A DNA stretch of 64,000 bases from Phycisphaerales bacterium. GTDB lineage: Bacteria; Planctomycetota; Phycisphaerae; Phycisphaerales; UBA1924. The notes below the pieces were generated by a model. It was not told the DNA's origin and searched no databases. It saw only the letters and a list, made by a program, of their open reading frames with translations. The stretch's first letter is position 1. Every line of letters begins with the position of its first letter. Shown here in pieces: positions 1-54,401 of this stretch. The position numbers were made by a program, and so were the translations under genes. The stretch spans positions 1-64,000 of the forward strand of contig JAJDDC010000102.1 in assembly GCA_029260515.1 (NCBI GenBank), written 5' to 3'.

Positions 1-13
1 TTCTCTCCGATCC

Positions 14-51
14 CCCCCTCTCCCCCCTGGGGAGAGGGCCGGGGTGAGGGG
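14..51. repeat. Dispersed palindromic repeat, family 1, copy 1
   Basis: Short palindrome with arms CCTCTCCCCC and GGGGAGAGG, followed by GCCGGGGTGAGGGG. The same block recurs near 2882, 2953, 7291 and, inverted, 52899. Here it lies in the gap upstream of atpC. Repeats of this type are common intergenic elements in planctomycetes; no function is evident. Confidence 0.8.
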
Positions 52-167
52 CTCCGTCTCCTCCTCTTCCTCCTCCCCGACCTGCCGACCTGACGACCTC
101 CCACCTGCCGATTCCCCCTCCCGCCGACTATCATCCGCCCCGATCCCGCTTAACCCGGAGCCCGCCC

Positions 168-2117: not shown

Positions 2118-3194
2118 CTACACCACCTCGATCTCGCGACTACCTGGCACAAACCCCGCCCCCGCCCCCCGCGACAGCAACTCCTCGATCGCCCCCCGTC
2201 CCCGATCACCCATCTCCACCGTCAGCCCGCTCACGTACATCGCAAGGTAATTGTCCACCAGCGCATCATCCTCCCACTCCGCCCGATCCCCCGCGTTGCG
2301 CCGCAGGAACTCCCGCGACTCGGCCCGATGCTCGACCGCGAACCGCACCGATTCGCCGAGCAACCCCGCAACCTCGCGCACCGTCCCCGCCCCGAACCGC
2401 TCGTCCAGGTCCCGACGCACGACATTGAGACCGAGCGCCAGGGGCGCCCCCGTCTCCCCCGCCCACCACTGCCCCAGGTCTATAACCGCCCGCAACCCCA
2501 ACTCCCCGAACGTCAGCTGCGCTTCATGGATCAGAAGCCCCGCGTCCACCTCTCCGCGTGCCACCGCCCCCGGGATCTCACTGAACAACATCTCGACATG
2601 CTCGAACCCGCGATCACCCCCCGCCCGCGAACGAGCCGTCGCGTCCTCGCGACGGACTCCCCCGAGCATCAACCCGAGCGTCAGGAACGCGCTCGTCCGC
2701 ACCCCGGGCACCGCGACCCTTAACCCACGCAGGTCCTCGGGCGTGCGCACACCGCTGTCCTCCCGCACAACAACCTTCGGACCGTACCCCTCCCCGAACG
2801 ATCCCCCGCACGCCGTGATGACGTACCGATCCGCGATATACGGGTACGCCGCGCACGAGATCGCCGTGATGTCGTACGCCTCCCTCCCTCTCCCCCCCGG
2901 GGAGAGGGCCGGGGTGAGGGGCTCCGTCCCCTCCGTCTCCTCCTCTTTCCTGCTCCCTCTCCCCCGTGGGGGAGAGGGCCGGGGTGAGGGGGTCTCCATC
3001 ATCTCGCCGTGCCGCGTGTGCCCTTCCCCAACAACCAACCGATTCAACTCCTCCACATCGCGCGCAACAGTCTTGAACCGGTACCGCCCCGTCTCAACGC
3101 CAACCCCCATCGCCCCCGTCAAGGGCCACCACATCACCAGATCATCCGAGTCCGGCGAGTGCGCGAGCGTCAGTTGGACGGTGTCAGTCGTCAT
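2118..3194 (-). CDS. mqnD: Menaquinone biosynthesis protein MqnD (1,4-dihydroxy-6-naphthoate synthase type)
   Basis: MqnA/MqnD/SBP-fold enzyme of the futalosine menaquinone pathway. MqnD converts cyclic dehypoxanthine futalosine to 1,4-dihydroxy-6-naphthoate. The N-terminal AHSPDSDDLVMW, then YDITAISCAAYPYIADRY, GGSFGEGYGPKVVVRE, and a C-terminal VSGLTVEMGDRGRGAIEELL are characteristic. The ATG at 3194 overlaps the preceding gene by 11 bases. The 358-aa length is inflated by about 48 residues (59-106) encoded largely by two family-1 palindromic repeats in frame, between the helix ending LVVGEG and the strand starting YDITAIS. The related MqnA is less likely because the family's ISxHA-like segment and the C-terminal helix match MqnD better. 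Confidence 0.85.
   Translation of the reverse strand: MTTDTVQLTLAHSPDSDDLVMWWPLTGAMGVGVETGRYRFKTVARDVEELNRLVVGEGHTRHGEMMETPSPRPSPPRGRGSRKEEETEGTEPLTPALSPGGRGREAYDITAISCAAYPYIADRYVITACGGSFGEGYGPKVVVREDSGVRTPEDLRGLRVAVPGVRTSAFLTLGLMLGGVRREDATARSRAGGDRGFEHVEMLFSEIPGAVARGEVDAGLLIHEAQLTFGELGLRAVIDLGQWWAGETGAPLALGLNVVRRDLDERFGAGTVREVAGLLGESVRFAVEHRAESREFLRRNAGDRAEWEDDALVDNYLAMYVSGLTVEMGDRGRGAIEELLSRGAGAGFVPGSREIEVV
2882..2992. repeat. Two family-1 palindromes inside mqnD
   Basis: Two copies of the CCCTCTCCCCC...GGGGAGAGGGCCGGGGTGAGGGG palindrome, at about 2882-2921 and 2953-2992, separated by a C/T-rich spacer. They are read in frame on the minus strand as PSPRPSPPRGRG and LTPALSPGGRGRE. No stop codon is introduced and the flanking mqnD sequence is continuous. 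Confidence 0.85.
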
Positions 3195-3660: not shown

Positions 3661-4174
3661 CGCCCGTTTCACCCACAACCCGCCACGCACACCCGCACTC
3701 CGGGCACACAACCACCCCCGACTCCCGCTCGGGCGTCCCCCGCAGATCATAAAAGCAACCCACGCACACCCGCATCGACAGCATCGCCCGCGTCGCCGCC
3801 GTGTCGTCCACGTTCATCATCGCCAGCCCCGCCACGATGACGGCCACGATGCTCACGAGCATCGCGTACCCGACCACCCGCCCCGCCAGGCGCCCGGACT
3901 CGAAGCCAAACGCCTCCGACGCGACCGTCATCCCGATCACGCACGCGATCAGCACCAGGAACACGACAAAGGGCGCCCCGATCATCCACCTCGCCCAGAC
4001 GGGCGTCGCCCGCCACCGCGCCCGCCCGAACGCCTTCCGCCGGTCCCAGCGACGCACGACCTTCCGCCGCTTCTCGGCCCGCAGATGCCGCACCCGCCGC
4101 CCGTCCTCGTCGCGCACCGTCCCCCACATGTGATCCAACAGCGTCCGCCTCGGATGCGGCGGGAACTCACGCAC
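3653..4174 (-). CDS. Membrane-anchored zinc-ribbon protein B
   Basis: Unknown function; fourth of five paralogs, 173 aa. A basic Arg-rich N terminus precedes two membrane segments (about 67-90 and 103-122) and the ribbon CVGC-x16-CPECGCAWRV. The start is taken as GTG at 4174 because it forms the overlap GTGCGTGA with the stop of paralog C, the same 8-base geometry as the A/B junction. An internal ATG at 4129 is the alternative. The first cysteine pair sits after a MRVCVGCFYDLRG segment shared in pattern with the other copies. Confidence 0.78.
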   Translation of the reverse strand: MREFPPHPRRTLLDHMWGTVRDEDGRRVRHLRAEKRRKVVRRWDRRKAFGRARWRATPVWARWMIGAPFVVFLVLIACVIGMTVASEAFGFESGRLAGRVVGYAMLVSIVAVIVAGLAMMNVDDTAATRAMLSMRVCVGCFYDLRGTPERESGVVVCPECGCAWRVVGETGDA

Positions 4175-4679
4175 CCCCGCTACCCCCGTCCGTCTCCCCC
4201 ACCAACCGCCACGCCGCCCCGCACTCAGGACACACCACGCACCCATCCGCCTCCCGCGGCACCCCCTCCACCTCGTACAAGCACGCCGGACACACACCCA
4301 CGCGCAGCATCGCCAGCGCCCGCACGCGCGCCTCCTCGCCCGCCCCCGTCGCGACCACCGCCGCCGTCAGCACGATCGCGGCGCCGAGCGACATCAGCAC
4401 CAGCCCCCCGAAAAACGCCTCGCCGATGCCCACCCCGACGATGTCCGAGAGCGTGTGTCCCACCAGCGACAACCCCCCCAGCACCCACGCTGCCTGACAC
4501 GTCCAGACCAGCCGCCGCCGCCGCCCCGCCGTCATCTCCCGCACCGCGACCGCGTGCTCACGCCGGCGCTCAAACGCCCGCAAGAACGCACGCACCTCCT
4601 CCAGGCTGGCGAGCGTGACCTCGCGCCCCCGCGCGTCGTCCGCCCGCCGCCGCCGCCGCTTCATCGCGATCCCGAGCAT
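4167..4679 (-). CDS. Membrane-anchored zinc-ribbon protein C
   Basis: Unknown function; third of five paralogs, 170 aa. The N terminus is strongly basic (MKRRRRRADDARGRE), followed by a charged helical stretch, two membrane segments (about 63-85 and 91-113) and the ribbon CPAC-x16-CPECGAAWRL. It starts 28 bases after the stop of paralog D, the only non-overlapping junction in the array. The ATG at 4664 (MKRRRRR) is an alternative start. The tail GGSGGA is low complexity. Confidence 0.78.
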   Translation of the reverse strand: MLGIAMKRRRRRADDARGREVTLASLEEVRAFLRAFERRREHAVAVREMTAGRRRRLVWTCQAAWVLGGLSLVGHTLSDIVGVGIGEAFFGGLVLMSLGAAIVLTAAVVATGAGEEARVRALAMLRVGVCPACLYEVEGVPREADGCVVCPECGAAWRLVGETDGGSGGA

Positions 4680-4707
4680 GACCCGATTGTTCGCACCCGC
4701 GCACACA

Positions 4708-5220
4708 TCAGCCCGCCGAATCCCCCGATTCACCCAAACGCCACGCCGCCCCGCATTCCGGGCACACGACACACCCGTCGTCCTCGACCGCCAGCCCGCC
4801 CAGCCCGTATTCGCACGCCGCACACACCCCGTCACGCAGCCTCGCCCCCCGCTCCACACGCGTCCGCCGACCGGGCCACGTCAAGTACATGAGTGACACA
4901 ACGAGGGTGAGCATCGCCATGACAATCCCCACCTGCGAACAGCGCGCCGCGAGCAGGACGATGTCGATGCCGTCCCCACCGGATCGGGTGAACTGCCACG
5001 ATGCGATCGCAATCACGCCCATCATCCCAAGCGGGATCAGCAAGGCCGCCACCAACGAACTCCACACGAGCACATGCAACGCCCGTCGCTCCCCGCGGCT
5101 CAGCCGCACCGATCGTCTTCGCCGTGGGTACTGCAAGGGACGCTCCACGCCCCGGTCATCCCGTGTCCGCTTTCGGCCGTCCGTGCTCAGTCGTACGCCG
5201 AGGATCTTGCGGTCAGCCAT
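4708..5220 (-). CDS. Membrane-anchored zinc-ribbon protein D
   Basis: Unknown function; second of five paralogs, 170 aa. It begins MADRKILGVRL, has an Arg-rich juxtamembrane segment, two membrane segments (about 48-75 and 85-112) and the ribbon CAAC-x16-CPECGAAWRL. The ATG at 5220 overlaps the stop of paralog E in the string ATGGCTGA, so it is probably translationally coupled. The juxtamembrane RRRRSVRLSRGERR and the small C-terminal domain predict a cytoplasmic ribbon. Confidence 0.78.
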   Translation of the reverse strand: MADRKILGVRLSTDGRKRTRDDRGVERPLQYPRRRRSVRLSRGERRALHVLVWSSLVAALLIPLGMMGVIAIASWQFTRSGGDGIDIVLLAARCSQVGIVMAMLTLVVSLMYLTWPGRRTRVERGARLRDGVCAACEYGLGGLAVEDDGCVVCPECGAAWRLGESGDSAG

Positions 5221-5671
5221 CGCCGGCCTCCCCCCCGAGCCGCCACGCCGCCCCGCACTCCGGGCACATGATGCACCCGTCCATCTCCGCCTTGAGCCCT
5301 TCGAGTGGGTACAAGCAACTCGGGCACTCGCCCGTCTCGCAAACACGCTCCACCGCCAGCCGCCATCCGGTCCGAACACACAAAACGCCCAGTGCCACAA
5401 GGGGCACAAACGGTGTCGCAAACGTCACGATGATCCACCACGTCAGATCGGGCTGATCCGTAAAGTCAATATCCGAAGGTTTCCACGAATACCACAGCAG
5501 CCCCGTCGCAGCGACCGCAAAGACGATGCCGCACACCCCGGCAAGAACGAGCACCAGTACACGCCCCGCCCGCGGAACGTCTCGAAACCGGATCGGCGCT
5601 CGAGCCGGCACGTTCGGATGCAGGCCGACCCATTTCCCACGGCCATCCCGCCATGGAATCCCTCTCCCCAT
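5213..5671 (-). CDS. Membrane-anchored zinc-ribbon protein E (first of five paralogs)
   Basis: Unknown function; promoter-proximal member of the array, 152 aa. It has two membrane segments (about 37-60 and 77-100) and the ribbon CPSC-x16-CPECGAAWRL. Its ATG shares one base with the purF stop (TGATG), a classic coupling signal, so the whole array is likely co-expressed with purF. Its ribbon is the closest match to those of C and D, which suggests local duplication. A role in purine or quinone metabolism is only suggested by position. Confidence 0.78.
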   Translation of the reverse strand: MGRGIPWRDGRGKWVGLHPNVPARAPIRFRDVPRAGRVLVLVLAGVCGIVFAVAATGLLWYSWKPSDIDFTDQPDLTWWIIVTFATPFVPLVALGVLCVRTGWRLAVERVCETGECPSCLYPLEGLKAEMDGCIMCPECGAAWRLGGEAGDG

Positions 5672-7167
5672 CAGAACATCCCCATCTGATCCTTCATCAA
5701 AACCTGATCCGTCCGCGGATGCTCCACGTCGATCCGGTAGTCCCCGCTGTAGCACGCCGTGCAGTACGACGCCGCCGGGTGCTTCATCACGCCCAGCAAC
5801 CCCTCGAGCGTGAGAAAATGCAGCGAGTCCACGCCCAGGTAGTCCCGGATCTGATCGACCTCGCGCCCGTGCGCGATCAGTTGCTCGCGTGTCGCGAAGT
5901 CCACGCCGAAGAAACAAGGGTGCCGGATCGGCGGGCAGCTGATCCGCAGGTGGATCTCGCTCGCCCCCGCCTCGCGGATCTGCTTCATCTTCTCCCGCGT
6001 CGTCGTCCCCCGCACGATCGAGTCATCGACCACGATCACCCGCCTGCCCCGGACGATCTCGCTGACGACGTTGAGCTTCAGCCGCACCGCCGTCCGCCGC
6101 TCGTCCTGCGTCGGCTTGATGAACGTCCGCCCGACGTACCGGTTGGGCACGATGCCCTCGCGGTACGGGATCCCGCTCTCGGTCGCGTACCCATTCGCCG
6201 CACTCCGCCCCGAGTCGGGCATCGGCATCACGAAGTCCGCGTCCACCGCCCCCTCGCGCGCCAGCGCCGCCCCCATCGCCTCACGCGCCACCAGCACGTT
6301 CTGCCCAAAGACAACACTCGACGGGTTCGAGAAGTACACGTGCTCGAACACGCACATCGCCGGCCGCTCCGCGGCCTCCGCGAACCGCCTGCTCTCCACC
6401 CCCGCGTCCGACAGTGTCACGATCTCCCCCGCCTCCACCTCCCGCACGAACCGCGCGCCGACCACATCCAATGCCACCGTCTCGCTCGCGACGATCGGCA
6501 TCCCGTCGTCCAACTCCCCCAGCACCAACGGCCGCCACCCCCACGGATCCCGCGCCGCCTCGATCCGATCCGGGAACAGGAACACGACGCTGAACGCCCC
6601 CTGCAGCCGCCGCAGCGTCGCCGCCAGCGGGTCCGCCGCCTCCCGCTGCTCGGGCGACGCGAGAAGGTGGATCATCACCTCCGTGTCGCTCGTCGTGTGG
6701 AAGATCCGCCCCTCCTCGGCGAACACCCGCCGCAACGCGTCCGCGTTCACCAGGTTCCCGTTGTGCGCCACCCCCACCTCGCCCCCGAGGTACCGCTCGA
6801 CCAACGGCTGCGCGTTGCAATGCTGCGACCCGCCCGTCGTCGAGTACCGGTTGTGCCCGATCGCACCCGCCGTCCGCCCGTGCCGCGCCCCCAGCGACAC
6901 CAGCTCACGCAGCGACCGCCCGTTGAACACCTCCGCGACCAGCCCCATCCCCACGTGCGCGTGCAGCTCCTCGCCGTCCGAGACCGCGATCCCCGCAGAC
7001 TCCTGGCCCCGGTGCTGCTGGGCGAACAACGCCGTGTACGTCAGCTCCACCCCGTCCCCGCGCCCCCACACGCCGATGACCCCGCACTTCTCCTTCTTCT
7101 CCGGAGCGCGTGCAGGCGCCGACAGCACTTCCAGCGGAACTCGACGCGGCGGGTTCGTCTCTGGCAC
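5671..7167 (-). CDS. purF: Amidophosphoribosyltransferase
   Basis: First step of de novo purine synthesis: PRPP plus glutamine gives 5-phosphoribosylamine. The 498-aa product has the N-terminal glutamine amidohydrolase domain starting at Cys28 (CGVIGVWG, then QQHRGQESAGIAV) and the phosphoribosyltransferase domain with the PRPP loop VIVVDDSIVRGTT. Cysteines in HPCFFGVD and YCTACYSGDY match the iron-sulfur class typified by Bacillus. The GTG at 7167 has GAGAG about 7 bases upstream. The residues before Cys28 would be a propeptide, longer than the 11 of Bacillus subtilis. It is the first gene of the operon leading into the zinc-ribbon array. Confidence 0.95.
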   Translation of the reverse strand: MPETNPPRRVPLEVLSAPARAPEKKEKCGVIGVWGRGDGVELTYTALFAQQHRGQESAGIAVSDGEELHAHVGMGLVAEVFNGRSLRELVSLGARHGRTAGAIGHNRYSTTGGSQHCNAQPLVERYLGGEVGVAHNGNLVNADALRRVFAEEGRIFHTTSDTEVMIHLLASPEQREAADPLAATLRRLQGAFSVVFLFPDRIEAARDPWGWRPLVLGELDDGMPIVASETVALDVVGARFVREVEAGEIVTLSDAGVESRRFAEAAERPAMCVFEHVYFSNPSSVVFGQNVLVAREAMGAALAREGAVDADFVMPMPDSGRSAANGYATESGIPYREGIVPNRYVGRTFIKPTQDERRTAVRLKLNVVSEIVRGRRVIVVDDSIVRGTTTREKMKQIREAGASEIHLRISCPPIRHPCFFGVDFATREQLIAHGREVDQIRDYLGVDSLHFLTLEGLLGVMKHPAASYCTACYSGDYRIDVEHPRTDQVLMKDQMGMF

Positions 7168-7543
7168 AGCGTTCTCTCGTTTCGAGGGCGTCTCGACCGG
7201 CGGGCGCGTCAGTCTAGCGGCCTCCAACCACACTCCCCCGCGCACCAAGAGAGAGGACCCGTGCTCCGACTCTCCGTGCCCATCCCCTTCTCCCTCCCTC
7301 TCACCTTGGGGGAGAGGGCCGGGGTGAGGGGTCTCCACCCCCCCCCCCTCCTACCCCCAGTCCGCCGCTGCGTCTCTCCGTCTCTCTCCCCCGCCTTGAC
7401 CCCCTCCCCCCCCCGACCTTCAATCCACCCCTGGGCATCGAATGCCCGGACCGGCCAGCCCGAAGCCTCGGCCCCCTGCCCGGTCGCTGAACCACAGCAC
7501 CCCGCCCACACACGGGCGGGAGACGGAAGAAAGGAACGATCCC
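7168..7543. other. Divergent intergenic region purF/rpsD
   Basis: This 376-bp gap separates purF from rpsD. It contains a family-1 palindrome at 7291-7331 (CCCTCTCACCTTGGGGGAGAGGGCC...) and a long pyrimidine-rich tract at about 7334-7425. The rpsD Shine-Dalgarno (GGAAGAAAGGAA) is at its right end. Open frames read through the repeat but have no coding character. Promoters for both genes must lie here; I cannot place them with confidence. Confidence 0.6.
7291..7331. repeat. Family-1 palindromic repeat, intergenic copy
   Basis: TCCCTCTCACCTTGGGGGAGAGG followed by GCCGGGGTGAGGGG, the same block as at 14-51 and inside mqnD. It lies in the purF/rpsD gap. Confidence 0.8.
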
Positions 7544-25706: not shown

Positions 25707-27491
<1,785 letters not shown>

Positions 27492-27704
27492 GGGGCCTCC
27501 GTGAGATCGAATGCGAGTCCGGTATCGCGTGTGCCATTGTATGGGCGGGCGTGGCTGGGCGAAGTGTGGGGGCGTGAATCCGGGCGTCTTGGGGCGGCGA
27601 AGGCGGTGGTGAGACCTGCGTCGCCCGGTGAGCCGTGGCGGGCGGCGCGTGCGTCCGGGGAGTCCGGGCGTGGACGGGCCGCGGCCTGCCAGGAGTGCAC
27701 CGGG

Positions 27705-28733
27705 ATGAACAGGTTGATGATGAACGTTGGCGTCGCGGCGATCGCGGCGGTGGCTGGTTCGGCGAACGCGCAGTGCAAGAGCACGACGACGGCGGCGGGC
27801 TGGGAGAAAGACGGCGCGTGCGAGAGCGCGACGGCCAAGTCGGGGTGCGAGAGCGGCTGGGCACAGGGAGAGGGCGCGCAGGCGACTGTCTCGAACGTCG
27901 CGTGGCAGGGCCCGAAGCGTGACATCGTGGACACAGCGGTGAACGCGGGCCAGTTCACGATCCTCGCCAAGGCACTGACCGAGGCGGGGCTTCTCGAGGC
28001 GCTCAAGGGTGAGGGGCCGTTCACGGTCTTCGCGCCCACCGATGAGGCGTTCGGGAAGCTGCCCGAGGGCACGGTCGAGATGTTGCTCAAGCCCGAGAAC
28101 AAGAAGCTGCTCGTCTCGATCCTGACGTACCACGTCGTGCCCGGGAAGGTCACGGCGGAGAAGGTCGTCAAGCTCGACAACGCGGGCACGCTCAACGGGC
28201 AGCGCGTTGACATCAAGACAAGGGACGGCAAGGTCAGTGTCGATGGCGCGAACGTCATCGCGACGGACGTGATGGCGAGCAACGGCGTGATCCACGTGAT
28301 CGACACCGTGATCATGCCCGAGACCAAGGACATCGTGGGTGTCGCGAGCGAGAACGGCTCGTTCGGGACCCTGATCGCCGCGGCGAAGGCGACGGGCCTG
28401 GTCGGGGCGCTGACGGGCGACGGGCCCATCACGGTCTTCGCGCCCACCGACGAGGCGTTCGCGGCCCTGCCCCCTGGCACTGTCGAGATGCTCCTCAAGC
28501 CGGAGAACAAGGACAAGCTTCGTTCGATCCTGCTGTACCACGTTGTCTCGGGTCGGGTGTACAGCGATCAGGCTGCGAAGATGAAGAGCGCCGAAACGCT
28601 GCAGGGCGGCTCGTTCAAGATCACGCCCTCGGGCGAGACGCTCAAGATTGACAGCGCGAGCGTTATCACGGCGGATGTCGAGGCGAGCAACGGTGTTGTG
28701 CACGTGATCGACTCGGTGATTATGCCCGAGTGA
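27705..28733 (+). CDS. Secreted protein with two FAS1 (fasciclin) domains
   Basis: 342-aa exported adhesion-type protein. A signal peptide (about 1-23, ending SANA-QC) and a Cys-containing linker precede two FAS1 domains (about 70-205 and 208-342). Each has the [11 protein letters not shown] or [11 protein letters not shown] motif, LLKPENK and the YHVV box, and ends VIDTVIMPE or VIDSVIMPE. The two domains are very similar, suggesting a recent duplication. AGGAG lies 10 bases before the ATG. It lies directly upstream of a SigK/RskA-like pair, so it is a likely regulon member. Confidence 0.92.
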
Positions 28734-28884
28734 GTGTTGTGATGTATCTCTACGCGGCGCCCGAGAGGTATTCGTGTGGAACGCGGCGGGAGCCGCGGTT
28801 GGACGCGGGGCGGGCCGGGGTCTTGATGGAGGCCCGCCCCCCGATGGCCTACGATCGCCGCGACGCTTGAGAGGGCGGCGCGGC

Positions 28885-29463
28885 GTGTCACAAGAAACAA
28901 TCCTTCAACGAGTTGCGTCGGGTGACGCGGACGCGGTCCGGGAGTGCACGGACCGGTACGGGGGGTTGGTATGGTCTCTGGCGCGTCGGTGGAGCCCGAC
29001 GCGGGCGGACGCCGAGGACGCGGTGCAGGACGTGTTTGTTTCCGTTTGGCGCAACGCGGGACGGTTCAACCCGGCGGTGGCCAAAGAGACGACGTTCGTG
29101 GCGATGATCGCGCGGCGGCGGCTTATCGACCGGATGCGCAAATCTGGGCGTAGACCCACCGAGGTCGAGTTGGACGAGGGCTCGTCGCGGGCGGGGAGCG
29201 GCGGGCTGGCTGCGCGCGGCGTGTCGGCTGAGCTTGGAGAGGACGCGGCGCGGGCCGAGGCGGCGATGCGGGAACTGAGCGAGGACCAGCAGCGGGTGCT
29301 GCGGCTGTCGATCATGCACGGGGTGAGCCACGAGAAGATCGCCTCGGCGACAGGGTTGCCCCTGGGGACGGTCAAGACGCACATCCGGCGTGGATTGATC
29401 AGGCTGCGCGCGGTGCTTGGCGAGAACGAGGCCGTCGGCGCCGGGAAGGGGGCGGGGTCATGA
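28885..29463 (+). CDS. ECF RNA polymerase sigma factor, SigK-like
   Basis: 192-aa extracytoplasmic-function sigma factor. Region 2 has DRYGGLVWSLARR and AEDAVQDVFVSVWRNAGRFN (about 21-62); region 4 has LSEDQQRVLRLSIMHGVSHEKIA and TGLPLGTVKTHIRRGLIRLR. Region 2 and 4 are joined by a Gly/Ala-rich linker. The GTG start has a GA-rich ribosome site. It overlaps the anti-sigma gene by ATGA, so the pair is translationally coupled. SigK-type factors are released by proteolysis of an RskA-type partner, which fits the next gene. Confidence 0.92.
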   Translation: MSQETILQRVASGDADAVRECTDRYGGLVWSLARRWSPTRADAEDAVQDVFVSVWRNAGRFNPAVAKETTFVAMIARRRLIDRMRKSGRRPTEVELDEGSSRAGSGGLAARGVSAELGEDAARAEAAMRELSEDQQRVLRLSIMHGVSHEKIASATGLPLGTVKTHIRRGLIRLRAVLGENEAVGAGKGAGS

Positions 29464-37411: not shown

Positions 37412-37420
37412 TAGAGTCTA
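37412..37420. promoter_or_regulatory. Shared palindromic -10 for carA and priA
   Basis: TAGAGTCTA. On the plus strand TAGAGT lies 9 nt before the priA GTG; on the minus strand TAGACT lies 7 nt before the carA GTG. It is the centre of the 19-bp gap between the two start codons. Confidence 0.55.
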
Positions 37421-37426
37421 GCGCTT

Positions 37427-39883
37427 GTGAGCGATCCATCACTCTTTGCACACGAGGGTTCGGCGGACGATTCGCCCGACGCGGCGTTGGGCGAGGGGGA
37501 GGTGTACGCGCGGGTCGCCGTCGAGCGCGCGATCGAGGGCGAGGCGGGCGAGGGCCTGCTGTACAGGGGCGAGGGGCTGCGGGTGGGCGACCGGGTCGAG
37601 GCGCCCCTGGGGCGGGGCAACAAGACCGCCGGCGGGATCGTCGTCGCGGTCGGGGGCGCGGAACTGCTGGCGGGATTCGACCCGAGGCGGGTCAAGGCGG
37701 CTGCGGGCACGGGGCGGGGGTCGCTGCGCCCGGCGCTGGTCGAGCTGGCGCGGTGGATCAGCTCGTACTACGTCACGCCCCTTGGGACCGTGCTCGCGAC
37801 GATGACGCCGGCGGCGGTGAAGGCGGGGACCGGGCGAAGGACGCGGGTGTGCGTCGAGCCGACGGAGCTACCTGCTCCCGCACCACGGCGCCCGGGTGAC
37901 GAGCCCCCGGCGCGAGCCGGGGGAACCGGGGGCGGCGGGCATGGTTCGGGTCCCCCAGCTTGCGCTGGGGGCTCGTTGGAGGGGGGGTTGACGCCCAGCG
38001 TGCGGGCGGCGCTGGAGAAGATCCGGGCGCTGCCGGCGTCGGCGTTCCCGGTCGAGGCGCGGGAGCTTGCGCGGCTCGTGGAGGCGCCCAACGCGGGTCC
38101 GATCAACAAGCTGGTCGCGGCGGGGTACCTGCGCGAGGTCGAGGTGCGGACGGTGCGGGCGCCCGAGGCGTTCTGGGAGTCGAGGCGGGTCGAGGCGGCG
38201 CAGAGCCGTGTGGTCGAACCGACCGTTGCGCAGTCGGCGGCGATCGGGGGGATCGGGGGCTCGCTGGGCTCGTTCGGCGTGCACCTGCTCCGGGGCGTGA
38301 CCGGGTCTGGCAAGACGGAGGTGTACCTGCGGGTGATCGAGCGGGCGCTGGAGGCGGGCAGGACGGCGTTGGTGCTGGTGCCGGAGATCTCGCTGACGCC
38401 GCAGACGGCCGGTCGGTTTATCGACCGCTTCGCGGACCACGGCGTGGCGGTCCTGCACTCGGGTCTGACGGCATCGACGCGGCACAAGCAGTGGGCGGCC
38501 GCGGCGAGCGGGGACGCGCGTGTGGTCGTGGGTGTGCGGTCGGCGGTGTTCGCGCCCTTGCCGGGGCTTGGCGTGATCATCGTCGATGAGGAGCACGACT
38601 CGTCGTACAAGCAGGACCAGGCGCCGCGGTACCACGGGCGGGACGTGGCGATCAAGCGGTCGCAGATCGAGGGGTGTCCGGTGGTGCTCGGGTCGGCGAC
38701 GCCGTCGCTGGAGAGCTGGCACAACGCGTGGAAGGGGCGGTACCGGTTGTGGGAGTTGCCCGAACGCGTGGGTGGCGGGGCGATGCCTCGGGTCCAGATC
38801 GTGGACCTGGGCGCGGAGCGGCGGCTCCGCCGATCGCTCGACGGGCGCGACCCGCACGTGCTCGACGCGATCGGGCCGACGCTCGAGCGGGCGATCGACA
38901 CGACGGTCCGCGCCGGCGGGCAGGTCATCCTCTTGCAGAACCGGCGGGGGTACGCCGGGTACGTCGCGTGCCCGGACTCGACGTGCGGGTGGCGGCTCGA
39001 GTGCACCGAGTGCGACGCGACGATGGTTGTGCACCGGGCGGGCGCGCGCAGGGGGTATGTCCGCTGCCACCACTGCCTGGCCCAGCAGCTGCGCCCCGAG
39101 GTCTGCCCGGCGTGCGGCAAGCGGCTGATCGACCTGAGCGTGGGCACGCAGCGGGTGGAGGAAGAACTCGAACGCCGGTTCGGCACAACGCTGGGCCTGA
39201 TCGCGGGCGAGACGATGGCGCGGGTGGACTCGGACACGATGGGCAATGCCCGGGCGTACTTCGACGTGCTTGAGCGGTTCGGCAGGGGCGAGCTCAGGCT
39301 GCTGCTGGGCACGCAGATGATCGCGAAGGGGCTCGACTACCCGGGCGTGCGCCTCGTGGGCGTGATCAACGCGGACACGGCGCTGGGGCTTGCGGACTTT
39401 CGCGCCGGCGAGCGGACGTTCCAGCTCGTGTCGCAGGTCGCGGGGCGGGCGGGGCGAGGGGCGGAGACGGGTGTCGTGATCGTGCAGACGTTCGCGCCCG
39501 AGGAGCCGGCGTTGACGCGCGCGGCGTCGCACGACGCGGTCGGGTTTGCGCGCATGGAGCTGGAGACGCGGGTGCGGGCGGGGCTGCCGCCGGCGACGCG
39601 GATGGCGCGGGTTGTGGTGCGGGACGAGGACCTGGACAAGGCGACGGATCTTGCCGAGCGGATCGTTGTCGCGCTCAAGCAGAGCGCGGGCGAGGGTGTG
39701 TGGGTGGACGGGCCGTGGCCGTGCGCGATCGCGCGGGTCGCGGGGCGGCACCGGATCGGGATCGACGTGGTCGCGCCCGACGCGGGGCGTCTGCGCACGA
39801 CGCTGACCGCGGCGCGGGCGGCGGGGCTACTGACGAGCGACCGCCAGGTCGCGGTGGACGTGGACCCGGTGGCGCTGCTCTAG
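37427..39883 (+). CDS. priA: Primosomal protein N' (replication restart helicase PriA)
   Basis: 818-aa superfamily 2 helicase that reloads the replisome at stalled forks. In order: 3'-DNA-binding domain (about 26-110), winged-helix region (about 188-245), helicase with Walker A GVTGSGKT (290-297), DEEH (387-390), GSATPSLESW, the Zn-binding cysteine cluster (CGWRLECTEC, RCHHC, CPACGKRL, about 510-565), and the C-terminal GLDYPGVRLVGVINADT and QVAGRAGRG motifs. Residues about 151-187 (PRRPGDEPPARAGG...SLEGG) are encoded by an in-frame palindromic repeat in the linker between the first two domains. The GTG at 37427 is chosen; another at 37502 is possible. Confidence 0.95.
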   Translation: MSDPSLFAHEGSADDSPDAALGEGEVYARVAVERAIEGEAGEGLLYRGEGLRVGDRVEAPLGRGNKTAGGIVVAVGGAELLAGFDPRRVKAAAGTGRGSLRPALVELARWISSYYVTPLGTVLATMTPAAVKAGTGRRTRVCVEPTELPAPAPRRPGDEPPARAGGTGGGGHGSGPPACAGGSLEGGLTPSVRAALEKIRALPASAFPVEARELARLVEAPNAGPINKLVAAGYLREVEVRTVRAPEAFWESRRVEAAQSRVVEPTVAQSAAIGGIGGSLGSFGVHLLRGVTGSGKTEVYLRVIERALEAGRTALVLVPEISLTPQTAGRFIDRFADHGVAVLHSGLTASTRHKQWAAAASGDARVVVGVRSAVFAPLPGLGVIIVDEEHDSSYKQDQAPRYHGRDVAIKRSQIEGCPVVLGSATPSLESWHNAWKGRYRLWELPERVGGGAMPRVQIVDLGAERRLRRSLDGRDPHVLDAIGPTLERAIDTTVRAGGQVILLQNRRGYAGYVACPDSTCGWRLECTECDATMVVHRAGARRGYVRCHHCLAQQLRPEVCPACGKRLIDLSVGTQRVEEELERRFGTTLGLIAGETMARVDSDTMGNARAYFDVLERFGRGELRLLLGTQMIAKGLDYPGVRLVGVINADTALGLADFRAGERTFQLVSQVAGRAGRGAETGVVIVQTFAPEEPALTRAASHDAVGFARMELETRVRAGLPPATRMARVVVRDEDLDKATDLAERIVVALKQSAGEGVWVDGPWPCAIARVAGRHRIGIDVVAPDAGRLRTTLTAARAAGLLTSDRQVAVDVDPVALL
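37898..37978. repeat. Family-3 palindromic element inside priA
   Basis: 81 nt (27 codons). Two hairpins, CCCCCGGC-GCGA-GCCGGGGG and CCCCAGC-TTGC-GCTGGGG, lie within outer arms CGAGCCCCC and GGGGGCTCG. It is read in frame as part of residues 157-184 of PriA. A second copy lies at 39924-40003, in the same orientation. Confidence 0.85.
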
Positions 39884-39923: not shown

Positions 39924-40003
39924 GACGAGCCCCCGGCGCGAGCCGGGGGAACCGGGGACCGTGTGTGTTCTCGGGTCCCCTCGCTTGCGCGAGGGGCTCG
40001 TTG
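39924..40003. repeat. Family-3 palindromic element, intergenic copy
   Basis: The same architecture as the copy inside priA: GACGAGCCCCCGGC, hairpin, spacer, TCGGGTCCCC...GAGGGGCTCGTTG. It lies in the 206-bp gap between priA and murD. Confidence 0.85.
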
Positions 40004-52787: not shown

Positions 52788-53067
52788 GGGGGGTCTCGTG
52801 AAGTCGGCAGGTCGCGAGGTCGGCAGGTCGGCAGGTCGAGGAAGACGGAAGGCGGAAGGTAGGAAGCCAGAGATGGGGAGATGACGGAGGAGTTGTAGCC
52901 CCTCACCCCGGCCCTCTCCCCAAAGGGGAGAGGGAGGTCGGAGAAAGCCGTATTCATGGTTCGGTCGGCGCGCGCAGCCAGCGCGCCGGCCCTGCGTACC
53001 GGCGCGCTGGCGCGCGTGCATGATGTCCCCACTCAGTCGAGCGGGGTGATGTCCCCCTCAGAGGGGG
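52788..53067. repeat. Repeat-rich intergenic region
   Basis: Contains a tandem GGTCGGCAGGTCGGCAGGTC array (about 52804-52840), an inverted family-1 palindrome (52899-52934), and a palindrome CCAGCGCGCCGG...CCGGCGCGCTGG (about 52979-53010), all in 280 bp. No ORF with coding character is present. It separates bcp from a hypothetical gene. Confidence 0.65.
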
Positions 53068-54325: not shown

Positions 54326-54356
54326 GAAAAAGCCCAGGGTCGGGTGACCCTGGGCT
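54326..54356 (-). terminator. Terminator after the AGCS symporter gene
   Basis: Perfect 11-base stem, AGCCCAGGGTC and GACCCTGGGCT, loop GGGT; on the minus strand it continues TTTTTCATT. It lies 45 bases after the stop of the symporter gene. The short A/T tracts would allow bidirectional function. Confidence 0.88.
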
Positions 54357-54401
54357 TCGTGTGTTTCACGGGATCTCAGGCGGGATCTCGTCGCGGGCGG
54401 C

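Follow-up and report, generated by a model that had tools for sequence, protein, structure and literature searches.

In-frame palindromic repeats in a loop of MqnD from a Phycisphaerales bacterium: a probable insertion of REP-type units

The gene mqnD of a Phycisphaerales bacterium contains, within its open reading frame, two head-to-tail copies of a palindromic repeat that is dispersed over the rest of the genome. We think it very probable that two REP-type units were inserted here in frame, in a permissive loop on the surface of MqnD, and are translated as a neutral and disordered peptide. Such a state would be reached if a repeat copy landed in a tolerant loop, the net gain in length being a multiple of three, and was then translated into a hydrophilic and disordered stretch that left the fold and the active site unharmed; insertions that break the frame or the fold would be purged by selection, and the survivors would drift neutrally. 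That the insert peptide is made, kept and neutral is what we infer. The source genome (G000 in what follows) is a draft MAG of 3.83 Mb in 113 contigs, with Phycisphaerales MAGs as its nearest named relatives, and "the window" refers to the whole stretch of DNA that was analysed, that is the first 64,000 nucleotides of its contig JAJDDC010000102.1 (assembly GCA_029260515.1).

The long loop of MqnD and the state of the enzyme

The gene for MqnD (menaquinone biosynthesis, futalosine pathway) is read on the minus strand of the window from position 3194 to position 2118, as an open frame of 358 codons with the insert included, and its product matches the profile PF02621 over residues 105-343 (E=2.5e-50). 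From RDVEELN (counted in) to YDITAIS this protein has 62 residues, compared with 14-18 in most of the 79 MqnD loops that were measured. The net gain over most relatives is thus about 46 residues, close to the 48 claimed in an earlier note on this DNA, which had been made by a model from the sequence alone. The full extra loop, as delimited by the loop-length survey, alignments and AlphaFold2, corresponds to residues 58-106 (positions 2877-3023, minus strand), where just a few residues are found in typical relatives, and is largely made of two repeat units, both of them covered by the narrower span that had been proposed before (2882-3010). The unit adjoining YDITAIS (2881-2945, minus strand) is composed of a hairpin at 2886-2908 and a CCGGGGTGAGGGGCTCCGTC tail, and is read as EPLTPALSPGGRGREA; the distal unit (2951-3003, minus strand) has its hairpin at 2955-2978, also followed by a tail, and is read as TPSPRPSPPRGRGS. 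The two palindromes have perfect stems of 10 and 11 bp, the same CCGGGGTGAGGGG sequence follows each of them, and the units are in direct orientation. When 201 bp spanning the insert were used as a query, the hits in the rest of the genome were to the insert and not to the mqnD sequence on either side of it. The presence of two dispersed palindromes in frame inside mqnD, which was the central claim of the earlier note, is confirmed by the open frame, the PF02621 match and the 23 genomic copies of the repeat (see below), and the note's interpretation is supported on its main points.

AlphaFold2 (70 sequences) gives MqnD a mean pLDDT of 86, with most of the core above 90 and residues 63-103 below 50, and so predicts an intact core fold with a disordered insert connecting helix 47-55 with strand 109-113. 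This agrees with the previous placement of the insert in a loop before YDITAIS, since the model has here a low-confidence loop in an otherwise confident fold. Among solved homologs, 1zbm aligns on both sides of the insert site and 2czl downstream of it.

The earlier note had itself named an inactive mqnD as something that would count against its proposal. Dying genes can accumulate insertions, and one could therefore imagine that mqnD is decaying or inactive and that the insertions mark a pseudogene; however, the frame is open, all columns that are invariant in 70 MqnD homologs are kept, and dN/dS between G000 and its sister species (G001) stays under 1 in both flanks of the insert (about 0.22 upstream and 0.43 downstream, rough values that count as support rather than proof because dS is probably underestimated at 70% GC). 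A second mqnD was not seen and an MqnC-like gene of the same pathway is present (with a score below the model's cut-off), which also speaks against a pseudogene, and we consider that the chance of a dead gene is very slender. In the aligned part of the insert, the changes between the two species are evenly distributed over the three codon positions (13/12/13). These figures support, and do not prove, the idea that the flanks of mqnD would be under purifying selection and the insert free of it. The sister MAG, for its part, independently has the same kind of mqnD insert as the draft MAG G000. As for the extra residues of MqnC, inspection by eye revealed no recognisable repeat in them.

It could also be argued that the repeats are removed from the RNA or from the protein, in the manner of an intron or an intein, leaving a mature enzyme without the peptide. 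As RNA, the two hairpins together are indeed predicted to form a stable fold (-73.9 kcal/mol, z -1.9), but the folding z-scores are modest, a splice or protease signature was not seen, and several unrelated repeats behave alike, which argues against a specific removal system. We regard such a removal as extremely unlikely and favour a translated insert.

Family 1 as a dispersed repeat and its known counterparts

The repeat found in mqnD (family 1) consists of a hairpin CCCTCTCCCC..GGGGAGAGGG followed by the tail already described, in a unit of about 50-60 bp. Its core, GGGGAGAGGGCCGGGGTGAGGG, has 23 copies in G000 when up to three mismatches are allowed (11 of them are exact), for a single match of a reversed control pattern. 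Double units occur at three places, namely mqnD, C40:198603 and C48:86309, the latter two with 83-84% identity to that of mqnD. On the strand of the repeat (CCCTCACCCCGGCCCTCTCCC) all frames are free of stops, and on the opposite strand a TGA is present in one frame only; five of the six frames are thus open, and translation can pass through a copy in any of these. In the window, copies with no convincing coding context lie at 11-75 (plus strand) and at 52877-52937 (minus strand). Another one (7290-7352, plus strand) is located at the 5' end of a purF-like ORF (5674-7350, minus strand), either in its 5' leader or in its N-terminal coding part: the longest version of this ORF starts inside the repeat, and the choice of the start codon decides between the two.

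The window also harbours repetitive features of other kinds. Four similar stretches of about 113 bp (family D1), spaced by about 500 bp, are present at 3661-5333 within a run of small related ORFs that end in CPECGAAWR-type motifs, which looks like a tandem gene family, and palindromes outside called ORFs are found at 39925-40001 (ACGAGCCCCC...GGGGGCTCGT) and 54330-54357 (AAGCCCAGGGTC...GACCCTGGGCTT).

In a broad sense, REPs are stem-loop repeats of 20-60 bp that occur in many copies, are mostly intergenic and are often paired. Family 1, with stems of 10-11 bp, 23 copies of which about eight are coding in frame, and doublets at three places, corresponds to this description. No GTAG adjoins the stem in the aligned copies; about half of them have a CTCCGTC motif, but it comes after the GGGGTGAGGGG tail and lies far from the stem. 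Since GTAG is absent there, and the CGTC-like motif is both remote from the stem and limited to about half of the copies, we refer to family 1 as REP-type in this broad sense, and not as a GTAG REP or as one of the palindromic elements of Rickettsia (RPEs).

The likeness to Rickettsia suggested in the earlier note holds good as a working analogy; it does not extend to membership. If family 1 is set against the RPEs as they are described in PMC3733652, both are palindromic dispersed repeats that are in frame in unrelated conserved genes and form part of apparently functional proteins. In that source, the RPEs of R. conorii (for instance RPE-1, RPE-4 and RPE-6) have a terminal CGTC tag at one repeat end, whereas in family 1 the CGTC is not directly at the stem; family 1 also differs by being GC-rich, by its presence in Phycisphaerales and by its unit of about 50-60 bp. 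Di Nocera et al. 2013 (PMC3733652) have described intragenic GTAG/CGTC REPs, for instance in uvrA and the DNA ligase gene of Opitutus terrae (Verrucomicrobia), in truA/truB and in recB, where two Xanthomonas species carry different REPs at nearly the same site. Like these, the repeats reported here are short hairpins, often double, that are in frame in DNA-repair and tRNA-modification genes; unlike them, family 1 has neither the GTAG tag nor CGTC at the stem, its core is common to several phyla, and several of the genes reported here show recurrence in the same loop. Translated intragenic palindromes are thus of a published kind; what is less documented is that unrelated families colonise the same loops repeatedly. 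A literature search for a published description of the family-1 core or its peptide returned nothing relevant.

Of 392 planctomycete genomes, 44 contain the exact core, two of its bases being variable (with a maximum of 212 copies in one of them), and family-1-like sequence was found on 85 plasmid records, mainly from Azospirillum and also from Sphingobium, Variovorax, Deinococcus and others. It is possible that some of these matches reflect convergence on a simple GC-rich hairpin.

The double units, together with RAYT-type Y1_Tnp genes in the genome, are reminiscent of REPIN/REP doublets and their RAYTs, and a relative (G053) has in its MqnD loop an element that forms an inverted pair, as in REPINs; the family-1 units of mqnD, unlike those of REPINs, both point the same way, and none of the RAYT genes of G000 has family 1 on its flanks. 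Y1_Tnp genes exist in both G000 and G001. At the four Y1_Tnp matches of G000 we found no flanking family-1 copies, three of them having no family-1 palindrome nearby. The fourth, L141 (G000:C63:118430-118968), is flanked on both sides by an unrelated inverted pair (GGGGGGGCTTCCAGCCCCCCC / GGGGGGGCTGGAAGCCCCCCC), an arrangement that makes it a candidate transposase with a palindrome of its own. In G001, one RAYT-like gene is situated about 1.6 kb from a family-1 cluster, i.e. not flanking it. No transposase could thus be assigned to family 1. We would suggest that family-1 repeats move and are perhaps mobilised in trans by an enzyme of the RAYT/HUH type. The RAYT-like gene L131 of G001 (G001:C83:14478-15036) itself holds a different repeat, family 5, in frame (NGATADPKGSRA), and the same peptide is encoded in ligA of G000.

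Occupation of the same loops in relatives and in other genes

The earlier note had anticipated that relatives would lack the segment, and this is right for most of them: the family-1 segment is absent, most of the measured loops are short, and relatives without repeats have kept the shorter loops. It does not hold for the sister species, as G001 has one degenerate family-1 unit beside YDITAIS, with 37 of 45 bases identical and at an equal distance from the conserved strand. The simplest reading of this alignment is that the YDITAIS-proximal unit was inherited by both species from a common ancestor, an independent insertion at the same place in each being possible. The distal unit is present in G000 only; in its place G001 has a palindrome of another family, family 2 (CCTCCCCCGCC..GGCGGGGGAGG), copies of which are scattered across many sites of the G001 genome.

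MqnD loops of at least 40 residues exist in only five of the measured lineages, and each of them contains a repeat: family 1 twice in G000, families 2 and 1 in G001, family 3 in G053 (GAGCCGCGGGCGTGAGCACGCGG as an inverted pair, with several genomic copies), family 4 in G035 (GGCTCCCTCGCCGGCGCTTCGGGCTCGT, about ten genomic copies) and, by sequence match, a family 4-like repeat in PLA8 (L168; 0 of 2000 shuffles matched as well). Four unrelated repeat families occupy this one MqnD loop across the five lineages. This bears on the possibility that the long loop is a functional extension under selection (for binding or regulation), recruited from a repeat and now kept for itself. One copy is common to two species of the genus and has therefore persisted; however, the insert still resembles more than 20 dispersed copies, it is devoid of codon-position constraint, it is predicted to be disordered, and in relatives the loop is filled by unrelated repeats. 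A selected role appears very improbable to us, and a neutral insert remains our preferred explanation.

Coding copies in other genes, for which a survey of the genome had been proposed, are widespread, with Pfam matches across the repeat or on both sides of it in mnmA, ccsA, truA, ligA, aroA, tsaD and others. Eight of the 23 family-1 copies of G000 pass a two-flank codon-usage test, applied to loci of about 3 kb around the copies, as in-frame coding (L045, a 109-aa ORF, is doubtful), and ccsA (with a run of serines next to the repeat) is counted as coding on top of these from its Pfam match. The genes of G000 with family 1 in frame are mnmA, metH (where the copy lies between the B12-binding and activation domains), aroA, ccsA, a DUF58 gene and an SPP1-portal-like gene; Pfam profiles cross the repeat or flank both of its sides in the first five, and match on one side only in the last. 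In G001, family 1 is read in frame in truA, ligA, a DUF58 gene and a FAD oxidoreductase gene, and in G043, which belongs to another genus, it is read in frame in tsaD. Sites without insert are seen in mnmA of G001, G053 and G026 and in ccsA of G001. In the loci of G192 and G132 the frame analysis detected no copy that codes in frame, and such copies are therefore not equally common in every genome.

Recurrence in the same loop is observed in ligA (family 1 in G001, family 5 in G000), in truA (family 1 in G001, family 2 in G053), in ccsA (family 1 in G000 and G053, none in G001) and in DUF58, which is occupied in both G000 and G001 by different repeat mixtures; the repeat matches of metH and aroA in relatives are weaker or uncertain. 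The consensus strings for families 2, 5 and 6 came from G001 DUF58, G000 ligA and G000 DUF58, respectively, so that self-matches in these genes carry no weight; dispersal was checked separately for families 2 and 5, the latter having 32 matches in G001 and six in G000.

The earlier note had also spoken of three palindrome families inside conserved genes of the window, adding to mqnD a priA case and a B12/GTPase case. The latter was not found in the ORFs examined, and the count of three families is not established: ORF 25710-28904 encodes a methylmalonyl-CoA mutase without a strong internal palindrome, and ORF 29232-30350 matches an anti-sigma-factor domain. The PriA-like ORF 37415-39880 (plus strand; PF17764, PF18074 and helicase domains) has between its 3'BD and helicase domains an insert-like stretch, DEPPARAGGTGGGGHGSGPPACAGGSLEGG, that is plausibly, from its sequence, another repeat read in frame.

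We would put forward, tentatively and with less than even confidence, that some enzyme loops are recurrent landing sites for unrelated REP families, an existing repeat possibly attracting others and the loops growing by serial accretion. A refinement of our main explanation would be that repeats are drawn to sites that already hold repeats, the recurrence then reflecting nested targeting more than the permissiveness of the loop. Family-1 and family-2 units are indeed found side by side elsewhere in G001 (C83:9057-9157 and others), and the double units at C40 and C48 of G000 go in the same direction. On the other hand, the loops of G053 and G035/PLA8 are each occupied by one family, not the same in both cases, and show no visible remnant of a repeat that came before it, and intergenic clustering can arise simply because intergenic DNA is tolerant; we think this refinement rather unlikely.

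These observations would add Phycisphaerales, with several independent families, to the bacteria that have translated mobile palindromes, which so far comprised Rickettsia and a few others. In mqnD, ligA, truA, ccsA and DUF58, related species provide natural series in which the same loop is empty, singly occupied or doubly occupied. These series make testable both the origin of coding tolerance to selfish DNA and the idea that such inserts are raw material for new protein segments.
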